Assembly (NCBI GenBank): GCA_019428815.1
Contig: JAHYJW010000007.1
Span: 1-44,421 of the forward strand
From: Patescibacteria group bacterium
GTDB taxonomy: Archaea; Nanobdellota; Nanobdellia; Pacearchaeales; GW2011-AR1
Reading direction: 5' to 3'
Length of the DNA stretch: 44,421 nt
Part shown: positions 11,150 through 42,015 of the stretch, in pieces
Position numbering within the stretch: position 1 is the stretch's first letter
Layout of the letters: each line of letters starts with the position of its first letter
Made by a program: the position numbers and the translations under genes
The notes under the pieces: model-generated
The model's database searches: none
Told to the model about the DNA's origin: nothing
The model's input: the letters and a program-made list of their open reading frames with translations, nothing else

Positions 11150-11268
11150 TGAGCCTGCACGGATTTGAACCGTGGACCCCTGCCTCTCTTAGAAAACCAA
11201 GAGATACTAACCCTTACGAATCAGCTTCTTATAAGAGCAGTGCTCTGACCCGGCTGAGCTACAGGCTC
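11150..11268 (-). tRNA. tRNA-Ile(UAU) with a 44-nt intron
   Basis: Acceptor GAGCCTG pairs with CAGGCTC, discriminator A; D-arm GCTC/GAGC; T-arm CACGG/CCGTG around TTCAAAT. The anticodon stem is CTGCT/GGCAG with the loop split by an intron at the canonical 37/38 position (intron 11186-11229). The bulge-helix-bulge is textbook: loop CTTA pairs with intron TAAG, 3-nt bulges TA|A and AG|A hold the cut sites, and GAAG pairs with the TTTTC run inside the intron. The spliced loop is CTTATAA, so the anticodon is UAU. A TATA box (ATATTTATAAATAT, about 11289-11303) is centred ~28 nt before the 5' end. UAU is unusual in archaea. Confidence 0.88.
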
Positions 11269-23707: not shown

Positions 23708-23824
23708 GCCAGTGTGCCAGAGTGGTAATGGAACGGTCTCGAAATTAATGTTGATGTGGTTAGTAATCAAAATCAAGAAAACCGTGCCTTAATCGGCTCC
23801 TAGGTTCGAATCCTAGCGCTGGCG
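23708..23824 (+). tRNA. tRNA-Ser(CGA) with a 36-nt intron
   Basis: Class II tRNA: acceptor GCCAGTG/CGCTGGC, discriminator G; long variable arm GCC...GGC; T-arm CTAGG/CCTAG around TTCGAAT. The anticodon stem is ACGGT/ACCGT with the intron (23744-23779) after position 37. The spliced loop CTCGAAA gives anticodon CGA, a serine anticodon that agrees with the long arm. The central helix of the bulge-helix-bulge is imperfect (CTCG against CAAG, one mismatch), while bulge sizes still fit; the exact splice point could shift by one base. The intron carries TTGAT/ATCAA. Confidence 0.87.
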
Positions 23825-40457: not shown

Positions 40458-40563
40458 CGCCCTGGGCAGGAATCGAACCTGCGAGCCCAAAGGGCGTGGA
40501 TATTTGCGAACAAATCAAACAAATTCGTAGCAATCCACTGCAATACCATTATGCGACCAGGGC
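40458..40563 (-). tRNA. tRNA-Ser(GCU) with a 26-nt intron
   Basis: Acceptor GCCCTGG/CCAGGGC, discriminator G at 40458; anticodon stem GTGGA/TCCAC; class II variable arm GCCC-TTT-GGGC; T-arm GCAGG/CCTGC around TTCGATT. The intron (40502-40527) is after position 37. The bulge-helix-bulge is perfect: loop TTGC pairs with GCAA, bulges TA|C and AT|A, then GAA pairs with TTC inside the intron. The spliced loop is TTGCTAA, so the anticodon is GCU. An AT-rich TATA-like element lies at about 40585-40595. Confidence 0.93.
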
Positions 40564-41597: not shown

Positions 41598-41709
41598 TAG
41601 CGGGGGTGGGATTTGAACCACACGATCTCAGGGTTATGGGCCTTTCGCGTTTTTATAACATTTATGCCATTAAAAACTCTGCGAGGACTCCAGACTCCTC
41701 CACCCCGCT
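41598..41709 (-). tRNA. Initiator tRNA-Met(CAU) with a noncanonical intron
   Basis: Acceptor AGCGGGG/CCCCGCT with A1-U72 and discriminator A, as in archaeal initiators. D-arm GAGG/CCTC. After removing 41643-41678 (36 nt) the anticodon stem is CAGGG/CCCTG with the three G-C pairs that mark initiators, and the loop is CCCATAA: anticodon CAU and C33 rather than U33. The intron interrupts the stem at 29/30. The bulge-helix-bulge places the cuts: TCGC pairs with GCGA, bulges AG|A and AA|G, then GTTTTTA pairs with TAAAAAC within the intron. T-arm GTG(T)GG/CCCAC has one extra bulged T. A TATA box at about 41768-41778 (GTTTTATAAG) lies some 60 nt upstream. Confidence 0.85.
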
Positions 41710-41917: not shown

Positions 41918-41985
41918 AAAAAATAAGTGCAGGAGGAAAAACACCGAAGTGTTCAATATTAACCGAAGTTAATAGCTCCTCCTAC
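41918..41985 (-). ncRNA. Novel small structured RNA with two UUCG hairpins
   Basis: On the minus strand a 6-bp closing helix (AGGAGG 41983-41978 with CCTCCT 41936-41931) encloses two hairpins. The first is TATTAAC-TTCG-GTTAATA (41974-41957). The second is AACAC-TTCG-GTGTT (41953-41940), extendable by a G-T pair. Both loops are cUUCGg, the exceptionally stable tetraloop, but only in this orientation; the plus strand would give CGAA. A TATA box (TTTATAAAT, 42007-42015) is centred ~26 nt before 41985, and a T6 tract at 41923-41918 could end the transcript. No known family recognised. It may instead be a 3' structure of the surface-protein mRNA. Confidence 0.6.
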
Positions 41986-42006
41986 TTTTCATTGAGATTT
42001 TAATGA

Positions 42007-42015
42007 TTTATAAAT
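42007..42015 (-). promoter_or_regulatory. TATA box of the UUCG-hairpin RNA
   Basis: The palindromic TTTATAAAT lies in the gap between the surface-protein stop (42057) and the RNA. Its centre is about 26 nt before the predicted 5' end near 41985, the same spacing seen at the protein-gene promoters of this window. Confidence 0.5.

Follow-up and report, generated by a model that had tools for sequence, protein, structure and literature searches.

Identification of a predicted closed two-hairpin RNA in the window

On the minus strand of the window (the whole 44,421-nt stretch of DNA that was analysed), two neighbouring hairpins capped by UUCG loops follow the end of a surface-protein gene. The question raised by this locus is whether these hairpins belong to a small RNA gene of their own or to one of the genes that flank them. 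A sequence-only reading had described two TTCG-capped hairpins within a closing helix, accompanied by a TATA box and a T-tract, and all of these features are present on the minus strand (Table 1). In the RNA, a closing helix P1 of 9-10 bp encloses the two hairpins P2 and P3 and is followed by the tail ACUUAUUUUUU.

Table 1. Positions of the predicted small RNA gene and of its parts in the window
Feature	Position	Strand	Remarks
TATA box TTTATAAA	42007-42014	minus	starts at -29 from the first helix base; read directly
Predicted small RNA, 66-68 nt	41918-41985	minus	41985-41918 reads GTAGGAGGAGCTATTAACTTCGGTTAATATTGAACACTTCGGTGTTTTTCCTCCTGCACTTATTTTTT; putative 5' end G41985, from promoter spacing, fold and homologues
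P1 closing helix, 5' arm GUAGGAGGA	41977-41985	minus	from the fold; P1 covaries across homologues; pairs as GTAGGAGGA (41985-41977) with TCCTCCTGC (41937-41929)
P1 closing helix, 3' arm UCCUCCUGC	41929-41937	minus	from the fold
P2 hairpin TATTAAC-TTCG-GTTAATA	41974-41957	minus	7 bp, cUUCGg loop
P3 hairpin (hairpin 2) GAACAC-TTCG-GTGTTT	41954-41939	minus	5 bp and one G-U, cUUCGg loop
Single-stranded tail ACUUAUUUUUU	41918-41928	minus	putative terminator and possible Lsm site; mostly ACUUAUWUU-like across homologues; T6 tract at 41923-41918, read directly

The MFE of the window RNA is -24.1 kcal/mol, compared with -10.65 ± 2.47 kcal/mol for shuffled sequences (z -5.45), and none of 200 shuffles equalled it. 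The opposite strand of the same segment folds more weakly, with a z of -3.15. Only four TTCG hairpins of at least 5 bp occur in the window, of which P2 and P3 are the sole adjacent pair.

Homologues and distribution

A blastn search of 187 related genomes with a 73-nt query matched the RNA in 10 of them. Since a first alignment (A1) had misregistered P1 of the window, only two-hairpin members went into the covariance models. Model R1 found the RNA in 20 of 181 genomes of the family. Model R2, run on 200 genomes of the order, found it in 21, every one of them in family f1. The weakest R2 match counted (L035 in genome G089, E 1.8e-4) consists of a simple-sequence repeat and is probably false, so that 20 genomes is a safer figure than 21. 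Outside family f1, a covariance-model search of a 371-genome phylum sample, a coarse first look that may miss divergent members, gave none of the RNAs of this type, hereafter called class A. Weak model matches (E 0.04-0.7) were mostly chance, and three of them (L036, L040, L041) pointed to the class B described below.

The true matches in the named genome collection lie in MAGs that are called Candidatus Pacearchaeota for the most part, and otherwise Nanoarchaeota or just archaeon. One further match is on a contig labelled bacterium (L106), on which the RNA has an archaeal TATA box; the contig also encodes a pilin-like protein and another that looks like a CHC2 zinc-finger primase. The promoter and the pilin-like protein suggest that this contig is archaeal in origin, and it may be an archaeal or mobile-element contig that was binned wrongly. 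Three viral contigs showing the pattern are without closing helix or TATA box and look like chance matches.

The genome of the window holds a single copy of the RNA. Tandem gene copies were observed at L016 in genome G081, 217 bp apart, and at L024 in genome G088, about 200 bp apart and diverged in sequence. Within the window's own genus the distribution is patchy: the RNA occurs in 5 of 11 genomes and is absent from the single-contig genome G007, which indicates that its gene is dispensable. It is probably ancestral to the family and would have been lost repeatedly.

Covariation and conservation of the fold

In an alignment of 16 members, 98.4% of cells were paired, against 39-61% in slid controls. 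Two-sided changes were found at 16 of the 20 base pairs, while shuffled controls gave a mean of 4.5 and slid controls at most 8. Across the family, such changes affect all seven pairs of P2 and five of the six pairs of P3. As the alignment used for pair counting had been fitted to the covariance model, an alignment-free check was added, in which each of 23 members was folded singly. All 23 folded unaided, with P1 closing on the first base around two (19 members) or three (4 members) hairpins and a mean z of -4.7. The close-relative alignment A2 alone varied too little for a covariation test. The sequence-only reading had proposed a selected structured RNA and a covariance model on relatives as the way to check it; this check, once run, revealed the compensatory changes given above, conserved folds and kept UUCG loops, and the proposal is thus upheld. 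In a few members GCAA, UUUU and other loops replace UUCG, so that stability, and not the loop letters, seems to be under constraint. Given its homologues, the predicted RNA locus is beyond chance, and the window RNA is a predicted member of an RNA family conserved in one family of Pacearchaeota.

The same data bear on the more speculative suggestion of a ribosome-directed RNA, whose GGAGG and CCUCC would mimic the Shine-Dalgarno (SD) and anti-SD sequences. GGAG is indeed found in the 5' arm of 14 of the 23 members, but there it is base-paired and its SD-like letters are buried in the helix, whereas the other nine members do without GGAG and still pair fully. Nine distinct versions of the P1 arm pair, all fully paired, occur among the 23 members: the arms become GUAGAAG/CUUCUAC, GUAGGGA/UCCCUAC, GUGGGGA/UCCCCAC and others, so that the SD-like letters are lost while P1 covaries. 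Because the letters of P1 vary while its pairing is kept, the SD/anti-SD idea fails, and we regard such a role as extremely improbable.

Promoter and predicted transcript ends

A TTTAWAWA-like 8-mer with a score of at least 7/8 stands exactly at -29 from the first P1 base in 18 of 22 loci, and in the remaining four the TATA 8-mer is at -30. At all loci checked, the TATA box falls within -29 to -31 of the first helix base. In the window, where a further A/T run lies at -45, the box at -29 was identified by direct reading. From this spacing we infer that the transcript starts at the first base of P1, which is 41985 in the window. The sequence-only reading had placed the 5' end at this position and had postulated an own promoter, in agreement with the spacing fixed in the homologues. 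Termination would take place at the T-tract; pairing of the 5' end and the loop caps would make the RNA stable and let it accumulate.

The RNA lies about 70 nt past the stop of the surface-protein gene and ends in a U-tract, as expected if it served the gene upstream, which is the surface-protein gene here and tRNA-Leu elsewhere, as a 3' terminator or 3'-UTR structure. This explanation is hard to reconcile with a TATA box located directly upstream at fixed spacing in all homologues checked, or with an upstream gene that varies between genomes. Moreover, archaeal U-tract termination is not known to need a closed multibranch helix, and one containing two or three hairpins would be superfluous for it. 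We thus consider a terminator structure highly improbable.

Genomic context

In 8 of 19 relatives, the RNA gene follows tRNA-Leu(UAA) in the same orientation at a distance of 57-137 nt, and in many relatives argS, identified by N-terminal similarity and not by family search, is near. The next gene encodes either a membrane-anchored SNase (PF00565) or, in the opposite orientation, a PRPP synthetase. The usual locus of the predicted RNA is thus one adjoining tRNA-Leu(UAA), argS and a secreted nuclease gene. The window RNA is not at this tRNA-Leu/SNase locus: it has a GLUG-repeat surface protein on one side and a split tRNA-Met on the other, and SNase was not found in its genome, which is 85% complete.

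The presence of SNase in the neighbourhood of the RNA in many genomes, with its start codon following the RNA by 25-63 nt in the same orientation in several relatives, would suit a cis-regulatory leader (riboswitch or attenuator) that decides between a stop at the U-tract and read-through into the SNase gene. However, the RNA is followed by a tRNA in the window, and by an opposite gene in G023, G053, G093, G088, G024 and G017; the latter gene is PRPP synthetase, according to Pfam in G053 and to N-terminal similarity in the others. In several genomes, including that of the window, the RNA has no consistent same-strand position upstream of one coding gene. A TATA-like sequence also precedes most SNase starts, which is weak evidence in AT-rich DNA. 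SNase genes moreover exist without the RNA in G004 and G007, which together with the differing context indicates that the RNA gene is separate and dispensable. A leader function is accordingly highly improbable.

The location of the window copy away from the usual locus and the tandem duplicates in G081 and G088 could also be those of a mobile palindromic repeat or of a structure at the DNA level. This is very hard to accept for an element with a single copy in its own genome, a synteny conserved across genera and a fixed promoter. In addition, about 30 of the 312 paired cells in the 16-member alignment are G-U, which points to an RNA made from the minus strand of the window; on the other strand such pairs would be A-C mismatches. 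Taken together, we consider it very probable that the window carries an independent gene for a structured small RNA acting in trans.

Other RNA genes were noted in these contexts. In the window, 41601-41708 (minus strand) is an initiator-like tRNA-Met (CAT) with a 36-nt intron placed between positions 29 and 30; ARAGORN and Rfam miss it, and without the insert it is called as tRNA-Met. Rfam tRNAs of 106-119 nt at 11150-11268 (minus), 40458-40563 (minus) and 23708-23824 (plus), which ARAGORN misses, probably contain introns. In three other genomes, the small RNA is followed after about 0.9-1.3 kb by a match to SRP RNA that scores below the Rfam cut-off (L022:2444-2706, L025:2454-2718 and L023:2858-3062).

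Comparison with known RNA families

No Rfam 15 family matched the RNA in cmscan searches at gathering and permissive thresholds, the only match being a chance one to STnc480 outside the RNA (E 2.8), and no class A or B RNA in 20 loci was matched by Rfam. Likewise, nothing similar was found in open-access papers on small RNAs of DPANN archaea or Pacearchaeota, subscription journals being outside this search.

Several described RNAs share part of its features. The STAXI and psaA motifs, both orphan RNAs (Weinberg et al. 2010, PMC2864571), also combine several hairpins, frequent UUCG/UNCG tetraloops and covarying stems; in contrast to the present RNA, STAXI is linked to genes of DNA-manipulation proteins and psaA is found in cyanobacterial 5' UTRs (PMC2864571). 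The H/ACA and C/D guide sRNAs of Nanoarchaeum equitans (PMC3491384) are likewise small and archaeal; some of them neighbour tRNAs, and some have promoters of their own. Unlike C/D box sRNAs, the 68-nt sequence contains neither C (RUGAUGA) nor D (CUGA) boxes and no kink-turn. It differs from H/ACA sRNAs in having no pseudouridylation or guide pocket, few unpaired junction nucleotides and a tail that starts with ACUU, not ACA; an apparent ACA box proved to be an artefact of counting the last AC of P1 as tail. Archaeal SRP RNA (RF01857) is also an RNA gene and shares the neighbourhood in L022, L023 and L025, but its gene is a separate one, about 260-320 nt long and different in architecture.

A second class of predicted RNAs with tandem UUCG hairpins

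A search of 165 genomes of the family for tandem UUCG hairpins matched 55 of them, far more than its reversed-pattern control did; in the rest of the phylum the matches did not exceed this control. In most of the 39 loci that were read, at least two UUCG hairpins stand in series and lead to a U-rich end, and the first stem is preceded by a TATA box at a distance of about 28 nt. These class B RNAs resemble class A in their archaeal family, TATA position (about -28), UUCG caps and U-rich tails, and differ from it in that their hairpins follow each other without an enclosing helix. Some genomes (G023, G024, G043, G053, G081) contain both. Some class B loci among L068-L096 and L160-L179 have three to six hairpins or repeated units; five (L077, L092, L094, L095, L096) are upstream of an aIF5B-like gene (RQPIVT...GHVDHGKT), and two precede argS, again identified by N-terminal similarity.

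Class B is thus a sibling-looking class, whose common ancestry with class A is putative. That both would form one superfamily specific to Pacearchaeota, making up an abundant dedicated RNA-protein particle without counterpart in other archaea, is a further-reaching idea that we hold to be unlikely.

Proposed mode of action

Beyond junction nucleotides and the U-rich tail, the RNA contains hardly any unpaired sequence and no conserved antisense seed. As almost nothing is left for antisense pairing, a protein-bound scaffold or decoy is the more likely role in trans for this presumably stable RNA, and a genome-encoded Lsm protein would most plausibly dock at its U-rich tail. Archaeal Lsm proteins bind U-rich RNA and sRNAs (PMC10779274). 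A U-rich single-stranded site and an Lsm gene are both present, but almost all genomes of the family encode Lsm: the gene was found in 36 of 37 genomes tested, that of the window included, and equally in genomes without the RNA, so that its presence does not separate carriers from non-carriers. Termination alone would also account for the U-rich tail. The step from a small RNA gene to an Lsm-bound scaffold is therefore proposed tentatively, as a possible but rather doubtful one.

No catalogued small-RNA family was found to match this RNA in these reduced, largely uncultured DPANN archaea, and its presence indicates that genomes of about 0.6 Mb retain lineage-specific RNA genes. Being compact, supported by covariation and provided with a start that its promoter defines, this RNA can serve as a probe for metatranscriptomes and for a protein partner.
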